The translations under genes and the position numbers were made by a program. The notes beneath the pieces were generated by a model, which was not told the DNA's origin, did no database searches, and saw only the letters and a list, made by a program, of their open reading frames with translations. Positions 1,905 through 12,076 of a stretch of 12,093 bases of DNA are shown piece by piece. The DNA is from Syntrophomonadaceae bacterium. Its GTDB lineage: Bacteria; Bacillota_D; Dethiobacteria; DTU022. How positions within the stretch are numbered: position 1 is the first letter of the stretch; each line of letters starts with the position of its first letter. Location of the stretch: positions 1 to 12,093 of the forward strand of contig PWUG01000383.1 in assembly GCA_003562605.1 (NCBI GenBank), in the 5' to 3' direction.

Positions 1905-2249
1905 ATGAGTGTAATCGCAAAAGCTAAAGAGCTGGGCAAAGAAATTCGTAAAACTGAGCAATACCGGGAACTGGAAAGAGTTTCTGAAAATATGCAGGAA
2001 GATGCCGAAGCCAACCAAATGGTCAAAGAGATCCAGGATCTGCAACAACAAATACAATTTGCCCAGCAGTCAGGGGTTCAACCCAGCCAGGAACAAATTG
2101 AGGAATTCAATAATTTAAAAAATAAAATGGATACAAGCCTGACCATACAAGCCTATGCCAAGGCCCAGAATGACTTCAGCGAGTTCATGCAGGATGTTAA
2201 CAGTGCCATCAGCGAAGGGATTAGTCCTGGCGAAAGCCAGGATTCATAA
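1905..2249 (+). CDS. YlbF/YmcA family protein
   Basis: A 114-aa, all-helical, Gln/Glu-rich protein of the YlbF/YmcA (Com_YlbF, former DUF964) family. In Bacillus subtilis YlbF and YmcA form a complex with YaaT that affects competence, biofilm formation, sporulation and RNase Y-dependent mRNA processing; whether this homologue does the same is inference. The opening residues IAKAKELGKEIRKTEQY and the following long amphipathic helices (about 28-57 and 61-105) are typical, as is the length. There are no Cys, signal or membrane segments. The start is firm: AGGAGG lies 8 nt before the ATG. A weak promoter candidate (TTGTCC at 1802-1807, TATTTT at 1826-1831, 18-bp spacer) lies upstream. It is a single-gene unit closed by a strong hairpin terminator. 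It could be a YlbF- or YmcA-type paralogue; I cannot separate these here. Confidence 0.85.
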   Translation: MSVIAKAKELGKEIRKTEQYRELERVSENMQEDAEANQMVKEIQDLQQQIQFAQQSGVQPSQEQIEEFNNLKNKMDTSLTIQAYAKAQNDFSEFMQDVNSAISEGISPGESQDS

Positions 2250-2290
2250 TGCTGTAAAACTAATAAGCATCTATTTTCCTGTAAACAGAA

Positions 2291-2335
2291 AACACCAACG
2301 CTGCTGCTCCGGCAGAAAGCGTTGGTGTTATTTTT
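2291..2335 (+). terminator. Rho-independent terminator, probably bidirectional
   Basis: A perfect 12-bp inverted repeat, AACACCAACGCT (2291-2302) and AGCGTTGGTGTT (2318-2329), encloses a second short stem CTGC/GCAG (2304-2307, 2312-2315). A T run (2331-2335) follows on the plus strand, 41 bp after the YlbF-family stop. Read on the minus strand, the same stem is followed by TTTTCTGTTT, so it can also end the universal stress protein transcript that stops at 2369. Confidence 0.9.
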
Positions 2336-2368
2336 ACTATCCTTACCTTTAAAAATGGTAAATCTCTG

Positions 2369-2809
2369 CTATTTTATAATCAAGACATTTGTTTTAGTAC
2401 AATGAGCTACCTTGTTGCTAACGCTACCCAGAAAAGCTTCTTGTATCCCCCGCAGGCCTTTACTGCCTAAAACCAGCAGGTTATATTTGCCTTCGTCGGC
2501 CATTTTGCAAATAACATTCGCGGGTGACTCCTGGCCCACCACTACTTCCGTTTTCACAGGTATGCCATTCTCGCTAATTTTATTCGCAGCAGCTTCGACA
2601 ACATTCTCAGCCTGTTCCTTCAGATTTTTTTTGATCTGAACCCAGTAATCGTCAGACATGTGCACGCTTATCCTGGTCTTAAAATCAAATTCTCCCGTTA
2701 CGTTAAGAACGGTTACCTCAGCATTTAAAGGCTGCGCTATCGTTATCACTTCATCAATCACTTTTACGGAATGATCCGAACCGTCAATTGCCAGTAGAAT
2801 ACGATACAA
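2369..2809 (-). CDS. Universal stress protein (UspA family), copy 1
   Basis: A 146-aa single-domain UspA-family protein. These are small alpha/beta ATP- or AMP-binding dimers that accumulate under starvation, oxidative or energy stress. The ATP-binding signature is complete: Asp9 in AIDGS at the end of strand 1, and G-2x-G-9x-G-S at Gly115, Gly118, Gly128-Ser129, followed by VSNKV. It should therefore be an ATP-binding type. The start is TTG (2807-2809), not ATG. It is supported by AAGGAGTGG 6-8 nt upstream, by the family start MYRILLAIDGS, and by alignment with the neighbouring copy, which begins at the same residue with ATG. A TTG start may lower translation relative to copy 2. It is the last gene of the minus-strand stress block, 43 bp after copy 2. 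Confidence 0.93.
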   Translation of the reverse strand: MYRILLAIDGSDHSVKVIDEVITIAQPLNAEVTVLNVTGEFDFKTRISVHMSDDYWVQIKKNLKEQAENVVEAAANKISENGIPVKTEVVVGQESPANVICKMADEGKYNLLVLGSKGLRGIQEAFLGSVSNKVAHCTKTNVLIIK

Positions 2810-2852
2810 CTATCACCACTCCTTTATGAAGGCTATCATCTTTAAAGTATCG

Positions 2853-3293
2853 CTACTTTACAATCAGCACACTTGAACATCCCATATGAGCAACTCTGTT
2901 ACTGACGCTTCCTAAAAACATTTCCTGAATTCCTCGCAGCCCACGGCTGCCAAGAATAATCAAGTCAAACTTGCCTTCCCTGGCCATATCACAGATTGCA
3001 TCCGCAGGAGATTTATGACCCATAACTACCTCGGTGTGTGTAATCAGTCCTTTTTCTCTAAACGGCCTGGCGGCCTCTTCGACAACACCGTCTGCTTCTT
3101 CCATGAGGTGTTTATTTATAGTTTGCCAGTTATCATCAGAAAACTGGACACTCACACGTGGGCTAAAAACATATTCCCCGACTACAGTAAGAACCGTGAC
3201 TTCTGCATTCAGGGATTCTGCGATAACCAGGCCTTTTTCAACCACCTTTTTGGAATGGTCTGAGCCGTCAGTTGCCAGTAAAATCTTATACAT
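2853..3293 (-). CDS. Universal stress protein (UspA family), copy 2
   Basis: A 146-aa UspA-family protein of exactly the same length as its downstream neighbour. Counting by hand without gaps gives 87 of 146 identical residues (about 60%), so the pair is a tandem duplication that has diverged. ATP-binding residues are intact: Asp9, Gly115, Gly118, Gly128-Ser129. Differences cluster in residues 41-60, 76-87 and 137-141, on the faces that usually set dimer contacts and partner choice, so the copies could form hetero- as well as homodimers (inference). ATG start with GGAGG 7 nt upstream. A 7-bp inverted repeat with a 4-nt loop (2843-2860) spans the stop codon but has no T run, so transcription probably continues into copy 1. 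Confidence 0.93.
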   Translation of the reverse strand: MYKILLATDGSDHSKKVVEKGLVIAESLNAEVTVLTVVGEYVFSPRVSVQFSDDNWQTINKHLMEEADGVVEEAARPFREKGLITHTEVVMGHKSPADAICDMAREGKFDLIILGSRGLRGIQEMFLGSVSNRVAHMGCSSVLIVK

Positions 3294-3310
3294 ATGTTGC
3301 CCTCCAGTTC

Positions 3311-3340
3311 ATTATATTAAATGAAATTAAAGATCTTCAA
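3311..3340 (-). promoter_or_regulatory. Candidate sigma-A promoter for the stress-protein pair
   Basis: On the minus strand, TTGAAG (3335-3340) and a consensus TATAAT (3311-3316) are separated by 18 bp. The predicted start, near 3304, would leave a leader of only about 11 nt that begins at the GGAGG ribosome site. The consensus -10 is good evidence; the -35 and the very short leader make the call moderate. Confidence 0.4.
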
Positions 3341-3351
3341 AACCAGAGGCA

Positions 3352-3376
3352 GTTTTCTTGTTGTGACAAGATAAAC
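3352..3376 (-). other. Intercistronic hairpin
   Basis: TCTTGT (3356-3361) and ACAAGA (3366-3371) form a perfect 6-bp stem with a 4-nt loop, extended by GTTT/AAAC pairing around a one-base bulge. It lies 24 bp after the ferritin-like gene and before the stress proteins. There is no T run on either strand, so it looks more like an mRNA processing or stability element, or a weak attenuator, than a terminator. Confidence 0.35.
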
Positions 3377-3399
3377 CACCCCTTCTAAAATTTCGCATA

Positions 3400-3702
3400 C
3401 TAATCCAGTTCTTCAATCATTTCTTCTACTTCTTCATAACCTGACTTGTAAAAAACGTCTTCTTCAGGTTCCAGCTCTTTTAATAAGCGCAGGAACTCTC
3501 CCGCATGCTCTCTCTCTTCGTCAGCGATATCTTTAAGCACCGCCTTTGCCAGCTTGTGATCGATTGATTCTGCCAGCTGCATATATAGTTGTATCGCTTC
3601 ATACTCCGCCGCTATCATAAATCGAATCGCGCGAACCAGCTCTTCGTGAGTTAGCTTGCGATCAGCTGCCAGACCGGAAAATGAATGGCCAAACTCAGGC
3701 AT
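3400..3702 (-). CDS. Ferritin-like protein of the encapsulin-cargo (EncFtn) type
   Basis: A 100-aa acidic protein with two antiparallel helices (about 18-46 and 49-77) and a Glu-rich tail. The iron-site pattern is E33 in AAEYEAI plus E63 and H66 in DEEREH, within one residue of the ferroxidase ligands E32, E62 and H65 of Rhodospirillum rubrum encapsulated ferritin. The sequence also resembles, from memory, the ferritin domain fused to the Pyrococcus furiosus encapsulin (THEELVRAI, EHAGEFLRLL, EEVEEM). This half-ferritin forms a ferroxidase site only as a dimer; the family oxidises Fe(II) and usually works inside an encapsulin shell. No encapsulin gene is adjacent and no typical C-terminal cargo peptide is visible; the tail ends EEMIEELD. 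Start: ATG behind a run of G (AAAGGGGGGGG) about 6 nt upstream. A general rubrerythrin-like protein is the main alternative. Confidence 0.82.
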   Translation of the reverse strand: MPEFGHSFSGLAADRKLTHEELVRAIRFMIAAEYEAIQLYMQLAESIDHKLAKAVLKDIADEEREHAGEFLRLLKELEPEEDVFYKSGYEEVEEMIEELD

Positions 3703-3732
3703 ATAATCCCCCCCCTTTACAGGTTTTAATAA

Positions 3733-3761
3733 ATTATATCAATATTCTGTTACTTGAGCAA
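3733..3761 (-). promoter_or_regulatory. Extended -10 promoter for the ferritin-like gene
   Basis: On the minus strand, TTGCTC (3756-3761) lies 17 bp before TATAAT (3733-3738), and the -10 has the upstream extension TG (TGATATAAT). The -35 lies within the last codons of the AOR gene. Transcription would begin near 3726, giving a leader of about 24 nt with the G-rich ribosome site. This would allow the ferritin-like gene to be expressed apart from the AOR gene. Confidence 0.5.
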
Positions 3762-5645
3762 CCAGTTGAGTGACAGCCTCTTTAAAGTTGCTTCTGTTGG
3801 GTTGCCGGTTTTTTGATCCCACCCGGCAAACTTGTAGTAGAGCGCTAAAGCAGCATCAACCGCTTCCCTGTTGAGACATTCACCCTTCGACGGTCCATCC
3901 GGCAGAGGCTTGAATAAGCGCTCCGGCAATTTATCATCTTTACTGGAAAAACCTTCCCGGGCATTAAAGAAACGCATCATGTTAAAACGCCTTTCCCCGG
4001 CAAGCATTAGTTCATAAAGTGAAGTCTCCCAGCCGAGACCGTAGCGGCAGACATCAACCAGTTCGGAAGGGCCGTACATCTGCCACGATGGGCCCCAAAC
4101 AAACTGGCAGATACATAGAGAGTCAGCTAGAGAATAAAAGCACTGGCTGTTAAAAGCGAAACGCACTTTTTCCTCATCTAGAACCAGTTGATCGGGCTTG
4201 TATCTTTTCCAGATACCAATCTGGTAAAGATAGTTCCACATTGGATTCTTCGGCGAAGCGGTTAAAACAGGGTCATGTTCACTGGACTGGTGGTCTGCGC
4301 CAAATGGGTTCACTGCATAAATTAATCCCAGGGAAGGTTTCTGCTGGGGCATATGAGCCGGCAGCTCCTGGCCCTTGACAGCTATGCTTAATTCTTCGGC
4401 TTCTTTTCCAATCCTACGGGCAGCTATTGCACTTCCTTCCGCCAGCAGATCTCCGAAGCCCTGTCTCCTGGCAATACTTTCGATCAGGGGCTTTAACACA
4501 TTTTCGTTACCGAAATTTAGTTCAAGCCCGTCGGTATCTTCCTTGTCAACCAAGCCTTTTTCATAACATTCCATGGCAAAAGCTATAGTTGCCCCGGTGG
4601 AAATTGTATCGAGCCCGTACATATTGCATAACTGGTTAGCCAGGGCAATGGCTTCCAAATTTTTTATGCCGCAGTATGATCCGAGAGCAGCACAAGTCTC
4701 GTATTCAGGCCCGCCGTAGAGCGGATCGACTATTCCGGGCACCTCCACCACTCTCTTGCACCTTACAACACAGCCATAACAGGTGTCTCTTTTTTTCAGG
4801 ATTGTATCAGTCATTGTTGTTCCGGTGATCTGCCCTGCGCCATCGGGGAAATAGCCCGATGTCCAGTTCCTGGTCACCAGGAACCCTTCCAGATGCATAC
4901 TTTCCAAGCCGCTGTCTGTCCCATGCTCCGCCAGGCTATCGACTGTGCTGTTATCTTTTATTCTTTTTTTAGCATCAAGGGTCAATTCTCGGAACTTATC
5001 CTTATCGACCGGCTTCTGTTTTTCTCCCTTTTTCAATACTACCGCCTTCAGGTTTTTCGAACCCATTACTGCACCGGTACCGGTCCTGCCGTTAGCCCTG
5101 TTACACATATTGATTATGGAAGCATACCTGACCATATTCTCACCGGCAGGGCCGACCTGGGCAATCTGTAAATCATTTTCTCCAAGATCATCACGAATAA
5201 TCTTCTCGGCTTCTCCGGTTACCTTTCCCCAGGCCGCCCCTGCATCATGCAGCTCCGCTTCATCACCCCTGATGTAAAGGTAAACCGGGCTTTGGGCCTT
5301 TCCCCTGAACATGACCGCATCCCAACCGTTTGCTTTCAGTTCCACGGGGAAAAAACCGCCGGCCTGGCTGTCACCTATACCTCCGGTAAGCGGGCTCTTT
5401 GTTGTAATGGCCAATCTGTTCAAACCGCTGATGGGCAGCCCGCTTAAAGGTGAAACCGCCATTACAAGAATGTTTTCAGGGCCAAGCGGTTCGACTCCGG
5501 GCTCTATTTCCTGCAAAATCAGGTAGAGCCCAAGCGCTGAACCTCCCGGATAAAGCCGGTATATCTCCCCGGGGATAGTGCGCCTGGTTACAACACCCCT
5601 GGTTAAATCTACATCTAGAATTTTCGCATCAGGAAAAGCTAACAT
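3750..5645 (-). CDS. Aldehyde:ferredoxin oxidoreductase family protein (tungsten/molybdenum bis-pterin)
   Basis: A 631-aa member of the AOR family: cytoplasmic enzymes with a tungsto- or molybdo-bispterin and one [4Fe-4S] cluster, which oxidise aldehydes to acids with ferredoxin, or reduce acids in reverse. Full length for the family (about 600-640). Order of domains: N-terminal pterin-binding domain (about 1-210; YPGGSALG, SPLSGLPISG, TKSPLTGGIGDSQAGG, GRTGTGAVMGSKNLKA), then the helical domains. Cluster ligands are C289, C292 and C296 (CX2CX3C) and probably C513 in DSLCICQF. Further hallmarks are GGPEYET (311-317), KGQELPAH (424-431) and GADHQSSEHDP (449-459). Substrate class cannot be fixed; the closest characterised subgroup is unclear. 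Start: ATG after GGGGGG about 7 nt upstream. No MoaD/ThiS-like or ferredoxin-like partner gene lies beside it. It is the first gene of a minus-strand series with the ferritin-like and stress proteins. Confidence 0.92.
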   Translation of the reverse strand: MLAFPDAKILDVDLTRGVVTRRTIPGEIYRLYPGGSALGLYLILQEIEPGVEPLGPENILVMAVSPLSGLPISGLNRLAITTKSPLTGGIGDSQAGGFFPVELKANGWDAVMFRGKAQSPVYLYIRGDEAELHDAGAAWGKVTGEAEKIIRDDLGENDLQIAQVGPAGENMVRYASIINMCNRANGRTGTGAVMGSKNLKAVVLKKGEKQKPVDKDKFRELTLDAKKRIKDNSTVDSLAEHGTDSGLESMHLEGFLVTRNWTSGYFPDGAGQITGTTMTDTILKKRDTCYGCVVRCKRVVEVPGIVDPLYGGPEYETCAALGSYCGIKNLEAIALANQLCNMYGLDTISTGATIAFAMECYEKGLVDKEDTDGLELNFGNENVLKPLIESIARRQGFGDLLAEGSAIAARRIGKEAEELSIAVKGQELPAHMPQQKPSLGLIYAVNPFGADHQSSEHDPVLTASPKNPMWNYLYQIGIWKRYKPDQLVLDEEKVRFAFNSQCFYSLADSLCICQFVWGPSWQMYGPSELVDVCRYGLGWETSLYELMLAGERRFNMMRFFNAREGFSSKDDKLPERLFKPLPDGPSKGECLNREAVDAALALYYKFAGWDQKTGNPTEATLKRLSLNWLLK

Positions 5646-5798
5646 CTTAATCCCCCCAAGTCATAATGTAAAGTTTCCTCAACCCCGGTGGTATAAATTG
5701 TTAGGATGCGGTGCATCAGCAATATTACCTGATCTATTTCACCAGTACGGCCAAAGATCCTTCTCTTATAGCAAATTTGACTTATTCTTGAAATCAAA

Positions 5799-5826
5799 AT
5801 TAAAACATTTCAGTTGAAGCCGTCAA
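5799..5826 (-). promoter_or_regulatory. Candidate sigma-A promoter for the AOR gene
   Basis: On the minus strand, TTGACG (5821-5826) is followed after 16 bp by TTTAAT (5799-5804); each box matches consensus at five of six positions. The predicted leader to the AOR start at 5645 is about 147 nt. Confidence 0.42.
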
Positions 5827-5840
5827 ATTAAAGAGTAAGG

Positions 5841-5868
5841 TTGAACACAGGCAATAATACGATATAAT
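5841..5868 (+). promoter_or_regulatory. Sigma-A promoter for the baeRF gene
   Basis: TTGAAC (5841-5846) and a perfect TATAAT (5863-5868) are separated by 16 bp. Transcription would begin near 5875, leaving a long leader of about 175 nt before the ATG at 6051. Confidence 0.6.
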
Positions 5869-5994
5869 AAGGGTATAGGAACAAAAAGAGCAATTAAGAT
5901 ACAAAAGCAAACTCACTTCAATATACCGCAACCCGGGCAATAAACGATCAGATCAATCCAGCTGCTATAAAACAAGGTTTAATAAAGTGACCGC

Positions 5995-6010
5995 ATAGAT
6001 AATTATCTAT
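5995..6010. repeat. 16-bp perfect palindrome in the baeRF leader
   Basis: ATAGATAATTATCTAT reads the same on both strands and is centred about 48 bp before the start codon and about 125 bp after the predicted transcription start. It could be an operator for a dimeric regulator acting as a roadblock. As RNA it would give only a weak AU hairpin. A chance palindrome in AT-rich DNA is possible. Confidence 0.4.
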
Positions 6011-6050
6011 CGATCCACTGATTGACAATCTTTATAAGGGGGATTATTAA

Positions 6051-7208
6051 ATGGAACGTTTGAATAAAGAAGATATGGAACTCCTCTTGGAACAGGGAGG
6101 GAGAAAGCCCTGCATATCAATCTACATGCCCACGCAGAAAGGAAGGGAAGGGGCTAAGGAAAACTCTACCCGTTTTAAAAACCTGCTAAATAAAACAGAA
6201 AAACAGCTCGAAGCAAGAGGTGTGAACTCTTCAGAACAAAAAGAATTGCTTGATTCTGCCAGGAAACTGATCAGCGAAAGTTATTTTTGGGCAAACCAGA
6301 GTGAGGGCTTTGCTTATTTCATTTCACCAGGGTTTTCCCGTAGCTATCGTTTATCCCTGCAATTTGAAGAAATGTCCATAGTCAGGGATTCTTTCCACCT
6401 TAAACCACTTTTCAAATTACTATCTACTGACGGCCAGTTTTATATTCTCGCCCTCAGCCAGAAAGATGTCCGCTTAATGCGCGGCACGCGCAGTATAATT
6501 GAAGAAATAGATTTAAGCAGTATTATTGAAAAGCTTGAAGCTGACCTCGGTGATGAACTTTTTGAACCAACCCTGCAGTTTCATACCGGTGCCCCGGATG
6601 CAAGCGGTACTCGCAGCGCTATATTTCATGGCCATGGCGGGGCGATAGACGGCTTTCTGAGAGAGAGGATGCTTAATTACTTTCGTTTAATCGATCGGGA
6701 AATACAGGGCTTAATTGATGATAAAGGGTCACCCCTTATACTTGCCTGTGTAGATTTCCTGATACCTCTTTATAAGGAGACCAGTAAATATCCCGTTCTG
6801 TTTGAGGAAAGTATCAAGGGGAATCCTGAAAATATCAATGCCCAGGATTTACATCAAAAAGCCTTGGATCTAATAATGCCTTATTTTCAGAAAAACCAGG
6901 AAGAAGCGAAAGCACGCTACCATGAATTAAAAGGGACCGGAAAAACCTCCAATGATATCCTTGAAATCCTGCCGGCAGCTTATCACGGCAGGATAAGCGA
7001 TATTTTTGTTACACCGGGCATCCAGCAATGGGGAAGTTATGATCCCGAAACCGAAGAAGTAAGCCTGAGTGAAGGACCTGATAGCGGTGATGAGGACCTA
7101 ATCGACCTGGCTGCGGCCAAGTCTTATTCAAATAGCGGCAATGTCTATGCCGTAGAACCTGGACAAATGCCCGATCAGAGTCCGGCCGTGGCTATCTTCC
7201 GCTGGTAA
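6051..7208 (+). CDS. baeRF-family protein (bacterial homologue of archaeo-eukaryotic release factor eRF1)
   Basis: A 385-aa soluble protein of the bacterial eRF1-like (baeRF) superfamily, most like the family-3/7 type that databases long called hypothetical. The order seen is: N-terminal domain with CISIYMPT (21-28), RLKNLL-like RFKNLLNKTEKQL (41-53) and FWANQSEGFAYF (79-90); a central domain starting near FYILALSQKDVRLMRG (130-145) with the Gly/His loop FHGHGG (192-197) and LACVDFLIPLYKE (231-243); and a C-terminal L7Ae-like part ending GNVYAVEPGQMP...AVAIFRW. There is no GGQ peptidyl-hydrolysis motif, so ordinary peptide release is unlikely. Members are proposed to act on ribosomes or tRNA in stress or rescue; no function is proven for this one. 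Start: ATG with AAGGGGG about 8 nt upstream. It leads the plus-strand unit with the radical SAM gene 77 bp downstream. Confidence 0.8.
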   Translation: MERLNKEDMELLLEQGGRKPCISIYMPTQKGREGAKENSTRFKNLLNKTEKQLEARGVNSSEQKELLDSARKLISESYFWANQSEGFAYFISPGFSRSYRLSLQFEEMSIVRDSFHLKPLFKLLSTDGQFYILALSQKDVRLMRGTRSIIEEIDLSSIIEKLEADLGDELFEPTLQFHTGAPDASGTRSAIFHGHGGAIDGFLRERMLNYFRLIDREIQGLIDDKGSPLILACVDFLIPLYKETSKYPVLFEESIKGNPENINAQDLHQKALDLIMPYFQKNQEEAKARYHELKGTGKTSNDILEILPAAYHGRISDIFVTPGIQQWGSYDPETEEVSLSEGPDSGDEDLIDLAAAKSYSNSGNVYAVEPGQMPDQSPAVAIFRW

Positions 7209-7285
7209 TTTTTCTATACTAAGAAGTTAGCAAAAAGGGGTAGGCTTGATTCCGCTATCTTATTGACGGGGTGATTCTGCTGGTG

Positions 7286-8365
7286 ATGACACGTAAGGAA
7301 TTTATAAAAAACTGCTGCCTGGCTGGCGGAGCTGGTTTGTTATGCCTCACCTGTGGGTCTTTTCTGCTCAGTGCCTGCATCCGGATTGAGGATACAGAAA
7401 ACGATCCTGCTTTATGGCAGCCGGCTTATTCCAGTTTAGCAGCCTCAGGTGAGCTTGATGAACGAGTCGAAGGGGTTTATGCAATTCTTGAAAATTGTGA
7501 GCTCTGCCCCCGCCGCTGTGGTGTGAACCGGCATGCAGGAGAAAAAGGTTTTTGCCGGGCTCCTAAACAAGCAATAGCTTACAGCCACCAGCCTCATTTT
7601 GGTGAAGAGTTGCCCCTTGTCGGGCGCAGTGGCTCCGGGACGATCTTCTTTTCCAACTGCAACCTGCGCTGCGTCTTCTGCCAGAACTGGCCTATCGCCC
7701 ACGAAGGGAGAGGCCGTGAAATCAGCGATGAAGAACTGGCGGGAATGATGCTCGATCTGCAGCAAAAAGGCTGCCACAACATTAACCTGGTAACGCCAAC
7801 TCACGTTTTACCGAACATCATTAACGCCACTCGTATTGCCTTCCAGAACGGCCTCTATTTACCTCTCTGTTACAACACCAGCGGTTATGAACGCACCGAG
7901 ATTGTTAAACTTCTAGACGGTATCGTCGATATTTATCTTCCTGACCTCAAATTCATGAATGGCGCTGAAGCGGAACGTTACAATTTGGCAGCAGCTTACG
8001 ACTATCCGCAAATGGCTCAGGACGCGATTACTGAAATGCATCTTCAGGTCGGAGATCTAGTCACCGACGATTACGGCATTGCCTTAAGCGGACTGATGAT
8101 ACGGCACCTGGTGATGCCCAATCGTGTGGCAGGCACAAAAGAATTTGTTCAATGGGTAGCTGAAAACTTGTCAAAAGATACCTATATCAATATTATGTCT
8201 CAATACCGGGTTGACTATAAAGCATTTGATTTCGAAGAGATTGCCAGGGCCATTACTTCCGATGAATTCGTAGAGGCAATGGAATGGGCCATAGAAGCGG
8301 GATTGACCAACCTTGATGAACGATCCCTGGCTCAGCTTGATATACACCGCACCAAAATTAATTGA
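7286..8365 (+). CDS. PflX-like radical SAM protein with Tat-like lipoprotein signal
   Basis: Radical SAM protein of the COG1313 (PflX) type, 359 aa from this start. The radical SAM cluster motif CX3CX2C is FFSNCNLRCVFCQNW (Cys125, 129, 132). Before it is a second Cys set typical of the group, CELCPRRCG...GFCRAP (Cys71, 74, 78, 90). NLVTPTHVLPNI, YNTSGYE and DIYLPDLKF confirm the subfamily. The target is unknown. The N-terminus is odd: TRKEFIK (2-8) resembles a Tat motif with RK in place of RR, followed by a Cys-rich hydrophobic stretch and a lipobox LSAC (Cys31), so export and lipid anchoring are predicted. Start choice: GGGGTGAT at 7268-7275 suits GTG 7283 or ATG 7286 better than GTG 7271; all three keep the signal. 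No terminator is visible at the end, and the stop is one base from the stop of the convergent radical SAM gene. Confidence 0.85.
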   Translation: MTRKEFIKNCCLAGGAGLLCLTCGSFLLSACIRIEDTENDPALWQPAYSSLAASGELDERVEGVYAILENCELCPRRCGVNRHAGEKGFCRAPKQAIAYSHQPHFGEELPLVGRSGSGTIFFSNCNLRCVFCQNWPIAHEGRGREISDEELAGMMLDLQQKGCHNINLVTPTHVLPNIINATRIAFQNGLYLPLCYNTSGYERTEIVKLLDGIVDIYLPDLKFMNGAEAERYNLAAAYDYPQMAQDAITEMHLQVGDLVTDDYGIALSGLMIRHLVMPNRVAGTKEFVQWVAENLSKDTYINIMSQYRVDYKAFDFEEIARAITSDEFVEAMEWAIEAGLTNLDERSLAQLDIHRTKIN

Positions 8366-8366
8366 T

Positions 8367-9566
8367 TTAAGCCCACAGGCCTGGCAAAACCGAGCCGCAA
8401 TAACTGCAGGACCCGTTTTTCAAATTTATCTCCTCGATAACAAAGCCTGCCCTGCTGATCACCTTTTCCCCGCAGTCCGGACAGAAGGTGTTTTCACCTT
8501 TGTGGCCGGTTACTTTGGCTATATAGACAAACTTTAAACCTGCATCCAGAGCTGTGTCACGGGCCTTTTCCAGAGTGGAAACAGGGGTCCTCGGCAGGGC
8601 AGACAATCGATACAGCGGATAAAAACGGGCAAAATGAAGAGGCACATCTGCACCCAGCTCACTTACAATCCACTTGCACATTTCACTAATAAGGGCCATG
8701 TCGTCATTTAAAGTAGGAATGACAATCGTGGTTATCTCAATATGGATGCCTGATTCATGAAGCAATTTTAGACTTTTTAAGACAGGTTCAAGTTCCCCGC
8801 CGACATATTCCCGATAAAACTCTGCATCAAAACCCTTGAGGTCAAAATTGACCGCATCCAGTTTTCCGGCAATATTCCGCAGCGGTTCAGGTTGGATAAA
8901 ACCAGCGGTATGCATCAGGTTTAGCAGGCCGGCTTTCCTCGCCTGATCTGCTACTGCTGCCATATACTCATAAAAGGCTACCGGTTCACCGAAAGCATAG
9001 CTAACAGAAGGCACTCCGGCTAACAAGGCATGTTCAATTACCTTCTCGGGCGGCATATCGTAGGCATGGACTTCTTCCGGGTTAACCAGGGCCATATCCC
9101 AGACTTCACAAAATTCACAGGCCAGGTTACATCCTGCCGTCGATATAGAGAGAGCCCTGCTGCCGGGCAGAACATGGAAAAAGGGTTTGCGCTCGACAGG
9201 GTCTTCCTGCACCAGTGCCGGATTCCCGTAAACCAGGGTATATCCATCGCCGTCACGGTTTTCACGCACGCGGCAAAACCCTCTTTCACCTTCCGACAGT
9301 TCACATAATCTGGGGCAAAGCTCACAACGCACAGCATTGCCATCTATCTTGCTGAACCAGGGGGATCGTTTTGCCCTGATCAAGCCTTTTTCTGTAAATT
9401 CAGTCGCTGTTCCAGGCGGAGGATCTTCTGTGGGGGTTTTTTCGGCCTTCCGAAACAGGGCACATCCGGGCATACTCGCCAGGCAAAATGCACAGAATCC
9501 GTAAGCGCCGGCTTTAAGCACTACACGACGGTTTGCCTTGCCTGAAAAATTAATCTGGCCAGCCAT
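8367..9566 (-). CDS. AmmeMemoRadiSam-type radical SAM protein with twin-arginine signal
   Basis: Radical SAM protein, 399 aa, of the PflA-like subgroup called the AmmeMemoRadiSam-system enzyme (usually found with Memo and AMMECR1 proteins, absent here). Features in order: Tat signal NRRVVLK (12-18) with hydrophobic segment to about 33 and a Cys at 35 (SMPGC, a poor lipobox); CELCPRLCEL...GFCRVREN (Cys81, 84, 88, 98); DPVERKPFFHVLPGS (122-136); radical SAM motif GCNLACEFCEVW (Cys146, 150, 153); YAFGEP (190-195), the SAM-binding strand; and a C-terminal Zn-ribbon-like set CPDCG (362-366) and CSYCG (387-391). The open frame runs 44 codons further upstream, but that extension is Cys-rich nonsense within the preceding gene. 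ATG 9564-9566, behind GGGAGG 11 nt away and just before the Tat motif, is preferred. It overlaps the membrane gene by 46 bp, implying co-transcription. Confidence 0.85.
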   Translation of the reverse strand: MAGQINFSGKANRRVVLKAGAYGFCAFCLASMPGCALFRKAEKTPTEDPPPGTATEFTEKGLIRAKRSPWFSKIDGNAVRCELCPRLCELSEGERGFCRVRENRDGDGYTLVYGNPALVQEDPVERKPFFHVLPGSRALSISTAGCNLACEFCEVWDMALVNPEEVHAYDMPPEKVIEHALLAGVPSVSYAFGEPVAFYEYMAAVADQARKAGLLNLMHTAGFIQPEPLRNIAGKLDAVNFDLKGFDAEFYREYVGGELEPVLKSLKLLHESGIHIEITTIVIPTLNDDMALISEMCKWIVSELGADVPLHFARFYPLYRLSALPRTPVSTLEKARDTALDAGLKFVYIAKVTGHKGENTFCPDCGEKVISRAGFVIEEINLKNGSCSYCGSVLPGLWA

Positions 9567-12076
9567 GGCTGATCTAACCTCCCACATATAAATAGTACTA
9601 CAAAAGCAGTTCCATTGGCAATAGCGGCAAAAAGTGCGCAGGCGATAATCCCCAGTACAGGAGCCACAACTGCGCTTGCCAGGGCAGCACCAACACAAGC
9701 CCCGAACAACTCTGCTCCATAAACAATCCCTGCAGTTTTGTCGGCATCCCTCTTCAGGGTCATGTAGCAGGCAACCGCTATCGGAAAGTCGACTCCGTTG
9801 ATCAGACCCGCCCCAAAAGTCAGCATAGAAAATAGCACGAAAATAACTGCCGGTGACTGAGCTGTGGCGGCTAAAGGGAGCACAAAGGCAATCATTACGG
9901 CCAAAAGGGCAATGCTCAACTGAACAGTGGCTAGAGTCTTAATCTCCGATTTATGCTTTACATAGCGATTAGTAAGAAACGCCCCCAGGGCCAGACCACA
10001 CATAAACAAGGCTACAATTAATCCCACTGTTTCATAAACAAATCCGTAAATGCTCTGGAAAGAAAATATCAGGGCAATCTGCAGAGTCATTGTGGAAAGG
10101 CCCGTAGTAAATACGGTAAAGTGAATCGCAAAGCCAAGTGCAAACTTGTTTCTTTTTCGCTTAGCGGCAGCCCGCATACCAAGTGCTGTAAGCAGGGACA
10201 CGATACATAGCGGCAAGATCCACCAGGGTTCAATGTGCAGCAGCCATGAAAAGGTTTGTGCACGGTCCCGGCGCGTCAAATCATCCCAGAACATCAGGGT
10301 ATAAAAATAGCCAATGGGCTTAAAATCAGTGTTAATAAAGTAACGCTGAACAACAGGAAGAAGATCTTTTTCTATAAGTTCCTGTTCTTCCAGGGAAGGA
10401 GGTAAGAGCGGCCCCGCTTCGGGTCCGTCGACGTGAGCTCTAATGCTCCGCCCATGGTTCCGGACTACCCAGTTCACCCTCCTAAGCTGAGAATCCTCCA
10501 GCAGGGTCTGGTAATGATGCGCCGAAAACCCTTCTGCTTCAATGCTCCTTTCGCTGTAGCGTTCTGCCAGAACAACAGGATCAAGCGAAATCTGCCCAGG
10601 GCTGTTAGTGGCAAAAAAGTATATAAAATGTTCACCTGCAGGCAGGACACGGGAAAATACACTGCCCAGGGTATGATAAATAGCCGCATTACGATTGGCC
10701 ACCGCTTTACCCCGTAGGTCGGGTGTAGATACCGCCCCGATTACCAGCACACCGTCGGGATTAAGCAGGTCTCCAACTTCGGTGAAAAATTCCTTCGTGT
10801 AGAAGCGGTTCAAAACCGCCGTGGCCGGATCGGGCACATCGACAATAATAAGATCATATTTTCCATCCGCGGTTTTGACGAAAAGCCGGCCGTCAGCGTG
10901 AACAAGATTAACCCGCGGATCAGCTAAAGCTTCCAAAGTTACACCGGAAACAAAGGGTTCTGCCGCATCAGTAAGCACCTCGTCGAGTTCGACATAATCA
11001 ACCTGCTCAACAGGATGCTTTATTATTTCACTAAGCACTCCACGCAGGCCACCGCCAATTAGCAAAACACGCTCAGGTGATTCGTGCTGCACCATGGCCA
11101 TATGAGCAAACTCCACCGCTTCCTGCTCTTCCAACCCGGGTACCAGTGTCTCCGGCCCGGCGGTGCTGAAAACAAGGTGCCCGCTCTGGTAAAAACTATA
11201 CTGGTCTTCAAGTCTTAGTATGGCAATAGTACCATGTTTTGACTGGTAAGTCCCGATAAGTTCGTGCTGTGGCGAAAAAAACTGCCACTGCAGGCGATAA
11301 GCCCACTGATCAAGGTTTCCGAGCAGGGGGTAAACACCGGCAGAAATAATTATAAGAACAACGAGCAGCAGATGCAAAGCTGACGGCCATCTATCACCTG
11401 CTACGGCATATCTGCGATTCATAAACAGGGCGGCACCGAGCATAAAAAGCCCAACCAACATCGCCGATTGGAATGAGTTTAAGTATTTAACCATCAGGAA
11501 GGTAAAAAGGAGACCGCCAAGCATATTGCCCGCCGCTTCACCAATGTATGTTTTTCCAATCCCCGATGTATCCGGGATCCCTTCGCACTCGCGCCAGACC
11601 CTGGAAAGCAGGACAAACTGTGCTCCCAAAAGCAGGCAGGATGGCGCCATCAGCAGAAAACAGGATAAAACCATATCGGCTAGTGAAAGATAGGCTCCGG
11701 GGGAAATCTCGAAAGAACTACGCAGGACACGCACCAGCAACACAGTTACCGGCAGGGTCAGCAAGATCCCTGCAGCGCTTATTGCAATAAATAACAGGGG
11801 GCGATTGATTCGCCAGACAAAAGCGGCTCCCACCCTGCTGCCTACACCGACCCATGCCAGCCAAGCGGCCAGGATTAACCCGATTGAAAACTCATTGCCG
11901 TGAAAAACCATCAACAGTTCTCGCAAAAACAAAACCTGGGCTACCTGGGAAACAATACCCAGCATCAGCACGGCTAAAAGATGCGGAGGCACTATTCGTC
12001 TTGCTGTCAGAAAGTCATCCGCTTTTTCTTTGCAACCGGATATATTCTGTTTGTCGCTGTTATTGGATCCTAGCAA
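9521..12076 (-). CDS. 14-TM membrane protein with central spermidine-synthase-like domain
   Basis: An 851-aa polytopic protein. Seven predicted helices (about 33-55, 63-80, 94-117, 129-158, 180-198, 203-220, 232-252), a soluble Rossmann domain of the spermidine synthase type (about 275-495), a linker (495-605), then seven more helices (611-634, 646-672, 677-703, 714-735, 742-765, 783-806, 808-832). The domain shows motif I LLIGGGLRG (339-346), YVELDE (361-366), HADGR (393-397) and YDLIIVDVPDP (407-417). The catalytic-type Asp413 is kept, but the Asp of the classical GGGDG is Leu344, so decarboxylated-SAM use is doubtful. Basic loops put the N-terminus inside and the domain outside. Databases call such proteins fused MFS/spermidine synthase; the function is unknown. 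The start is TTG (12074-12076) with GAGG 9 nt upstream and an in-frame stop at 12083-12085, so the frame is complete. It overlaps the radical SAM gene by 46 bp. Confidence 0.83.
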   Translation of the reverse strand: MLGSNNSDKQNISGCKEKADDFLTARRIVPPHLLAVLMLGIVSQVAQVLFLRELLMVFHGNEFSIGLILAAWLAWVGVGSRVGAAFVWRINRPLLFIAISAAGILLTLPVTVLLVRVLRSSFEISPGAYLSLADMVLSCFLLMAPSCLLLGAQFVLLSRVWRECEGIPDTSGIGKTYIGEAAGNMLGGLLFTFLMVKYLNSFQSAMLVGLFMLGAALFMNRRYAVAGDRWPSALHLLLVVLIIISAGVYPLLGNLDQWAYRLQWQFFSPQHELIGTYQSKHGTIAILRLEDQYSFYQSGHLVFSTAGPETLVPGLEEQEAVEFAHMAMVQHESPERVLLIGGGLRGVLSEIIKHPVEQVDYVELDEVLTDAAEPFVSGVTLEALADPRVNLVHADGRLFVKTADGKYDLIIVDVPDPATAVLNRFYTKEFFTEVGDLLNPDGVLVIGAVSTPDLRGKAVANRNAAIYHTLGSVFSRVLPAGEHFIYFFATNSPGQISLDPVVLAERYSERSIEAEGFSAHHYQTLLEDSQLRRVNWVVRNHGRSIRAHVDGPEAGPLLPPSLEEQELIEKDLLPVVQRYFINTDFKPIGYFYTLMFWDDLTRRDRAQTFSWLLHIEPWWILPLCIVSLLTALGMRAAAKRKRNKFALGFAIHFTVFTTGLSTMTLQIALIFSFQSIYGFVYETVGLIVALFMCGLALGAFLTNRYVKHKSEIKTLATVQLSIALLAVMIAFVLPLAATAQSPAVIFVLFSMLTFGAGLINGVDFPIAVACYMTLKRDADKTAGIVYGAELFGACVGAALASAVVAPVLGIIACALFAAIANGTAFVVLFICGRLDQPWLARLIFQARQTVV

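Follow-up and report, generated by a model that had tools for sequence, protein, structure and literature searches.

A candidate extracytoplasmic radical SAM module linked to an MFS-type membrane protein in a Syntrophomonadaceae bacterium

The window analysed here is a stretch of 12,093 nucleotides from a Syntrophomonadaceae bacterium (contig PWUG01000383.1 of assembly GCA_003562605.1), and our subject is a block of three genes, called A, B and C, at positions 7286-12076 of it. A and B encode radical S-adenosylmethionine (SAM) proteins with N-termini that resemble signals of the twin-arginine translocation (Tat) pathway. C encodes a membrane protein similar to those of the major facilitator superfamily (MFS), with an inserted domain of spermidine-synthase fold. 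The features of the block are listed below with their positions in the window and their strand; AF2 stands for AlphaFold2 and dcSAM for decarboxylated SAM.

7286..8365, + strand: gene A, radical SAM protein of 359 residues (PF04055, 44.1 bits); exported clade of 69 rows separate from 30 cytosolic copies
7286..7378, + strand: A, Tat-like signal TRKEFIK to Cys31, by direct reading; R3 conserved in 83% and C31 in 88% (n=121)
7496..7555, + strand: A, N-terminal Cys cluster C71-C74-C78-C90, at least 97% conserved (n=121)
7658..7681, + strand: A, radical SAM motif CNLRCVFC (C125-C129-C132), at least 97% conserved
8367..9566, - strand: gene B, AmmeMemoSam-type radical SAM protein of 399 residues
9462..9566, - strand: B, Tat signal NRRVVLK to Cys35 with a Cys-rich hydrophobic stretch; R13 and R14 conserved in 98% each, C35 in 94% (n=121)
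9273..9326, - strand: B, N-terminal Cys cluster C81-C84-C88-C98, at least 97% conserved
9108..9131, - strand: B, radical SAM motif CNLACEFC (C146-C150-C153), at least 97% conserved (n=121)
8397..8483, - strand: B, C-terminal Cys pairs C362/C365 and C387/C390, at least 97% conserved
9521..12076, - strand: gene C, 14-helix MFS-like protein of 851 residues with inserted spermidine-synthase-fold domain
11276..11986, - strand: C, helices 1-7, from hydropathy and the AF2 model
10247..11263, - strand: C, predicted extracytoplasmic spermidine-synthase-fold domain, residues 272-610, from the AF2 model, Foldseek and the positive-inside count
11039..11056, - strand: C, altered glycine loop GGGLRG (residues 341-346), in which the dcSAM-specifying acid is lost
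9581..10228, - strand: C, helices 8-14, from hydropathy and the AF2 model
9521..9566, - strand: overlap of 46 bp, 3' end of C with 5' end of B

Family membership and linkage of the three genes

Gene A starts at the ATG at 7286 (MTRKEFIK...LLSAC31). Gene B starts inside C at the ATG at 9566 (NRRVVLK...SMPGC35), with a GGGAGG ribosome-binding-like site at 9578-9583, and the stop codons of A and B are separated by 1 bp. The protein B belongs to the AmmeMemoSam radical SAM family (TIGR04337; 334 bits for a curated cut-off of 220), carries the CX3CX2C motif of such proteins and is similar in fold to the pyruvate formate-lyase activating enzyme PflA. A has the PF04055 domain, yet exceeds the cut-off of no NCBIfam model. 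Some of its relatives carry the database name putative pyruvate formate lyase activating enzyme, and we take A to be PflX/COG1313-like, the COG1313 label being also that of the original prediction. C scores 48.4 with NF037959 (MFS_SpdSyn), for which the curated cut-off is 40.

The surroundings of 80 of the 120 confirmed relatives of C were compared, 49 of these 80 loci being traced to genomes. Their records are named for 14 phyla (and one more only as the Planctomycetes-Verrucomicrobia-Chlamydiae group) and come mostly from metagenome-assembled genomes of soda-lake sediments. B is the codirectional neighbour of C in 66 of the 67 loci with enough contig, and A follows B convergently in 51 of 54. 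The block is clearly interrupted only in L069, by about 7.9 kb of other genes (2019-9912) between C and B, and two loci (L029 and L040) have the block without A. Further clustered neighbour families each occur in at most 6 of the 80 loci, thus no glycyl radical enzyme is fixed beside the block. A Tat-signal protein, presumably aldo/keto reductase-like, adjoins A in three spirochaete loci (L045, L048, L049) and lies near A in L019.

The same association was found in an order set of 60 genomes, 15 of which have C (E<=1e-100). A copy of B with more than 60% identity is present in exactly those 15 and in none of the 45 others (Fisher 1.9e-14). A copy of A at this level is present in 14 of the 15 and again in none of the 45; the contig of the remaining genome (G245) stops inside B. 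Paralogues at 33-53% identity are frequent in both groups and mostly align from behind the signal, those aligning from residues 12 to 27 being in G211, G216 and G248 for A and in G237 for B. Three of the 45 genomes without C have B-like copies at 42-47% identity. In L111 (G218) and L112 (G237) the B-like gene is signal-bearing and overlaps a distant C-like gene in reverse order, while the third contig (L113) is cut; L144/L190 is a further such distant pair. Neighbourhood co-occurrence had been set beforehand as one test of the original prediction, and both the 80 loci and the order set agree with it.

This linkage is not a general property of fused MFS-spermidine synthases. None of 15 Chloroflexota loci of such proteins (L126-L140) has a radical SAM neighbour, and a link of any MFS-spermidine synthase to radical SAM genes was therefore rejected; it is restricted to the branch to which C belongs. 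In Chloroflexota a full-length block C is present in 1 of 151 genomes, together with a distant one in G064, i.e. the distribution is sporadic. A plasmid search with C gave 17 records with weak matches, none of which spans 80% of C.

Quick trees were built from 93 rows of B, with the Desulfobacterota copies left out, and from 99 rows of A. The block copies of B form one clade (100, starred), with 20 fetched canonical copies outside. Their nearest fork leads to distant, mostly signal-bearing relatives; this fork (97, starred) includes L111, L112, L144, the second copy of L044 and L113, whose N-terminus is cut. L147 and L143 were labelled 'canonical' by the script, though they repeat L051 and L112. 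In the tree of A, 69 exported copies, of which 13 are from Desulfobacterota, form one clade (96, starred) and 30 cytosolic copies fall outside.

Tat-type signals and the membrane protein C

Signals were judged by twin-basic motif, hydropathy and direct reading by eye, not by a trained predictor, and conservation was taken from 121 aligned sequences for A, 121 for B and 120 for block C. The homologues of B show S/NRRxFLK, then a Cys-rich hydrophobic stretch, then a Cys, and those of A show TRRxFIK with a Cys mostly at the end, the window's own A carrying TRK and not RR. In the 80 loci, scanned with strings that also took in-frame residues upstream of the start, the twin-basic motif is present in all 70 readable copies of B (53 RR, 17 of RK/KR/NR/RN type) and in 51 of 53 copies of A (44 RR, 7 others). 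The two copies without it are L052, where the contig end cuts the gene, and L026 (SREKLLK). A 19-residue hydropathy scan of the window's B found no segment. A lipobox expression matched 31 of 51 copies of A and 26 of 70 of B, but it undercounts and misparses a few rows, so the endings were also read by eye. Both lipobox and cleavable AxA types occur in the block: an AxA-like site replaces the lipobox in many copies from spirochaetes, Trueperaceae, planctomycetes, proteobacteria and sulfate reducers, for example in L049.

The fetched cytosolic paralogues begin directly at the enzyme core (20 of B, L081-L100, from genomes of the loci, and 12 of A, L114-L125, from the order set). RR strings alone are found in 2 of 13 control rows for A and 5 of 25 for B, which we ascribe either to chance or to rows that are repeats or were already known to bear a signal. 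Chance occurrence of the signals on A and B was rejected in view of their conservation in homologues and of these paralogues, and the Tat-type motifs and terminal Cys residues noted in the original prediction are thus real. By motif and by eye, A and B have what characterises Tat substrates (twin-basic motif, hydrophobic region, lipobox or AxA). TatC is present in 54 of 58 genomes of such systems checked. Export of A and B is strongly supported by these sequence features.

The hydrophobic stretch of the B signal contains two Cys residues, C25 and C28 (window 9483-9494, residues 25-28; 76% and 77% of 121 sequences), which is unusual in a signal peptide. Both are also present in copies of B with a cleavable end, such as L049. 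In one exported B (L253, G623) a CxxCH, as for c-type haem, lies between the Tat signal and the radical SAM domain. Such haem is attached outside the cytoplasm. As a proof of location this candidate was put aside, since it was seen in 1 of the 15 sequences looked at, which is too little.

In C, a Spermine_synth domain (95 bits) is flanked by 7 + 7 membrane helices. The AF2 model has a predicted local distance difference test score of 84.7 and a predicted template modelling score of 0.85, and the membrane part has the MFS fold. Over 120 sequences Lys plus Arg residues number 3.1 per loop inside versus 0.6 outside. This count supports an outside location for the spermidine-synthase-fold domain, in agreement with the 14-helix topology of the original prediction. 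Foldseek groups the domain with aminopropyltransferases and it shares the fold of SpeE, yet C stays under every polyamine aminopropyltransferase equivalog cut-off (172.1 of 472, 111.8 of 260 and 97.6 of 249.55).

The binding site of this domain is altered. According to passages of PMC1282579, the glycine loop of spermidine synthase has an invariant Asp (Asp101) that takes up the space which the carboxyl group of SAM would need. This acid is present in all four SpeE references and in none of the 120 block C sequences, which have L, M or F there, followed by Arg in 115. The position is non-acidic in 34 of 35 C-like proteins and a gap in the remaining one (L365). E363, D365 and D395 are each kept in 120 of 120 block C sequences and in 30, 34 and 35 of the 35 C-like ones. 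The catalytic Asp D413 of the DxPDP motif is found in 117 of 120 block C sequences and D416 in 119, whereas the C-like relatives have the first in 1 of 35 and the second in 16. Since the SAM-excluding acid is lost and E363, D365 and D395 are largely kept, while the first catalytic Asp is mostly lost in C-like proteins, what C and C-like proteins have in common is more likely the ability to bind an adenosyl compound (plausibly SAM) than aminopropyltransferase activity. Movement of SAM by C would be plausible, considering its MFS part.

Relatives in Desulfobacterota and comparison with known systems

The type labels 'block' and 'C-like' were set in this analysis, and for 148 Desulfobacterota genomes the C-like threshold was E<=1e-60. 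C or a C-like protein was found in 28 of these genomes and a B match in 137. The N-termini of B were read in 96 genomes (30 best copies, 40 further ones, G033 as L051, and 27 copies of 26 genomes), these last 26 giving one more Tat-bearing B (G576). A Tat-bearing B is present in 50 genomes, and contig ends truncate three copies (G665, G634, G551). The reading took in every one of the 28 C-like genomes. Of these, 25 have a Tat-bearing B, and in G564 and G602 it is A, next to C, that bears a Tat signal. The 120 genomes without a C-like protein comprise 25 with a Tat-bearing B, 40 read without Tat, 11 without B match, 41 unread and 3 cut. Counting only genomes that were read, Tat-bearing B is thus more frequent with a C-like protein (25/28 versus 25/65; Fisher 4e-6). 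G674 and G627 have C-like partners below the E threshold.

A signal-less B lies about 1.5-1.8 kb from the C-like gene in L163, L167, L168, L171 and L177. Neighbours that we take to be MazG- and RsmI-like occur in L152, L155, L156 and L158. In L181 (6905-9045) a tandem pair of Tat-bearing B genes adjoins the C-like gene.

B belongs to the radical SAM family of the AmmeMemoRadiSam system (TIGR04337, with Memo PF01875 and AMMECR1 PF01871), and its Desulfobacterota relatives sit with Memo and AMMECR1. Among 16 fetched regions around Tat-bearing B, some of them picked since Memo had already been seen, Memo adjoins B in nine, often as a fusion with AMMECR1. All nine of these Memo copies have a hydrophobic signal (G549, G591, G597, G627, G633, G637, G662, G674, G675). 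A signal is found in 4 of 27 other distinct Memo copies (G566, G651, G034, G020), all from genomes with exported B or the block elsewhere; among the other copies, the score of L313 is purely mechanical and L319 lies at the end of its contig. A separate AMMECR1 has its own signal in G549, and none was seen in G633 and G662. In L365 (G674) a signal-bearing Memo-AMMECR1, a C-like protein and a Tat-bearing B overlap in one operon-like run. Judging from the signals on Memo beside Tat-bearing B and on the AMMECR1 of G549, these lineages appear to export an entire AmmeMemoRadiSam system. In contrast to these relatives, the window block has A and C, but no Memo or AMMECR1. Neither was found among the 10 window proteins scanned, nor as a recurrent neighbour in the 80 loci, where clusters were not annotated singly. 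Among 15 Firmicute-group block genomes (G001, G002, G005, G007, G010, G011, G012, G015, G016, G021, G022, G035, G040, G043, G049), Memo gave no match in 13 and a weak one in 2. A and C may stand in for Memo there.

The block also differs from other known systems. In contrast to B, no signal was seen by eye in the 20 canonical AmmeMemoRadiSam radical SAM proteins fetched from the genomes that contain the loci. C shares family score and fold with fused MFS/spermidine synthases and SpeE, but has lost the glycine-loop acid of SpeE and, unlike the general MFS-spermidine synthases of Chloroflexota, has radical SAM neighbours. PflA and PflX/COG1313 are like B in fold and like A by the names of its relatives; A and B differ from them in bearing signals. 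With Tat-exported iron-sulphur enzymes, A and B share a twin-arginine signal on a cofactor protein that would fold before export, and we know of none among those enzymes that is a characterised radical SAM protein. No exported radical SAM enzyme or exported AmmeMemoRadiSam is described in the titles and abstract beginnings listed from the open PMC literature, or in selected passages of papers among them; Memo-Ammecr1 systems are cited in a passage of PMC7159879.

Possible functions and other genes of the window

Radical SAM chemistry is taken as confined to the reducing, SAM-rich cytoplasm. With somewhat better than even confidence, we propose that A, B and C form one extracytoplasmic radical SAM module, in which C binds and perhaps supplies SAM. 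B and A would fold around their iron-sulphur clusters in the cytoplasm, be exported by Tat and act beyond the cytoplasmic membrane; in this organism a lipid anchor would hold them in place. C would display on the same outer face its spermidine-synthase-fold domain, which has lost the SAM-rejecting residue; it probably binds SAM and may bring this across to the two enzymes. As their target we would expect an envelope or secreted protein, a peptide or a small molecule, and not RNA. The signals, predicted topology, linkage, radical SAM motifs and lost acid are read from the sequences, and from these we infer export, turnover outside, and binding and passage of SAM. None of the three outcomes that were to refute the original prediction was seen. 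Its interpretation is partly supported, and the evidence leans towards C binding SAM itself more than modifying a polyamine product. The fuller scheme is a more tentative proposal that we find possible: catalysis outside the membrane, where an MFS protein whose spermidine-synthase domain has been repurposed would export SAM and present it, with enzymes delivered by Tat, exported Memo/AMMECR1 in some lineages, and targets in the envelope or among secreted molecules.

Several observations weigh against such a module. To our knowledge, no supply of SAM outside the cytoplasm has been reported, and no electron-donor or substrate gene is linked to the block. The data are sequences only, mostly from soda-lake metagenome-assembled genomes in which binning errors are possible. 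TatC was not found in 4 of the 58 genomes (G034, G049, G627, G675). G683 has a C-like protein and no exported A or B was found in it, and Tat-bearing B occurs in at least 25 Desulfobacterota genomes that are C-like-negative at the threshold used. An adjacent Tat-bearing A or B is found in only 9 of 30 Desulfobacterota C-like loci, with L187, which is cut there and has its Tat-bearing B in L212, as a tenth case. In L172 and L365 a Glu stands one or two residues ahead of the lost-acid position. The lost acid is itself not confined to proteins linked to radical SAM genes, being also missing from the glycine loops matched in general MFS-spermidine synthases, which gives less weight to the argument for SAM binding and lowers our confidence in the module. 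Finally, block C keeps Asp413, so it may still perform transfer chemistry.

These last two points would also fit exported A and B with C as an outward-facing aminopropyl or aminocarboxypropyl transferase, or as an exporter of a SAM-derived product that the radical enzymes change further, with no SAM supply. The DxPDP motif of block C and the grouping by Foldseek with aminopropyltransferases point the same way. Yet a Tat-bearing B partner persists beside C-like proteins (L111, L112, L190), a group in which the catalytic Asp residues are mostly missing, and we consider this explanation unlikely, if worth keeping in view. A and B might also be exported as iron-sulphur or metal-handling proteins that have given up radical SAM catalysis. 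The lack of a linked electron source and the hypothetical nature of SAM outside are in favour of this reading; we hold it to be quite unlikely. As a fallback, the original prediction had suggested that the signals do no more than tether both enzymes to the inner membrane face, which would be near the cytoplasmic SAM pool. Radical SAM enzymes need cytoplasmic SAM and low-potential electrons, and the window's own signals end in Cys, which speaks for such a tether. A cleavable AxA end would, however, release it, and such ends occur in several phyla, which makes export the better reading. The conservation of the twin arginines, the signals on Memo partners and one AMMECR1, and the predicted outside location of the C domain also argue against the tether, and it was set aside as very improbable.

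If the extracytoplasmic module proposed here is real, SAM and low-potential electrons can be provided outside the membrane, and a class of envelope modifications would be opened. Many anaerobic bacteria appear to export two radical-forming enzymes of a type that otherwise acts in the cytoplasm, beside a membrane protein whose outer domain looks fit to bind SAM, which would place a whole kind of chemistry outside the cell interior. The unsolved role of AmmeMemoRadiSam is touched as well: if a version of the system is exported, its target, in that branch at least, would rather be a protein, a peptide or a small molecule than RNA, and a culturable sulfate reducer would offer a periplasm in which to test this.

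The rest of the window contains the end of a glycine C-acetyltransferase-like gene and genes for a hydrolase and for YlbF-like, Usp, encapsulin-cargo-like, aldehyde ferredoxin oxidoreductase and baeRF proteins. A promoter and terminator scan was put aside (9 found versus 5.5 in shuffled sequences, and 6 versus 6.3). No encapsulin shell protein was found among the window proteins scanned. The encapsulin cargo ferritin-like protein at 3400-3702 (NF058679, 98.6 for a cut-off of 90) adjoins the aldehyde ferredoxin oxidoreductase at 3750-5645. A baeRF or ribosome hibernation factor-like protein is encoded at 6051-7208, upstream of A.

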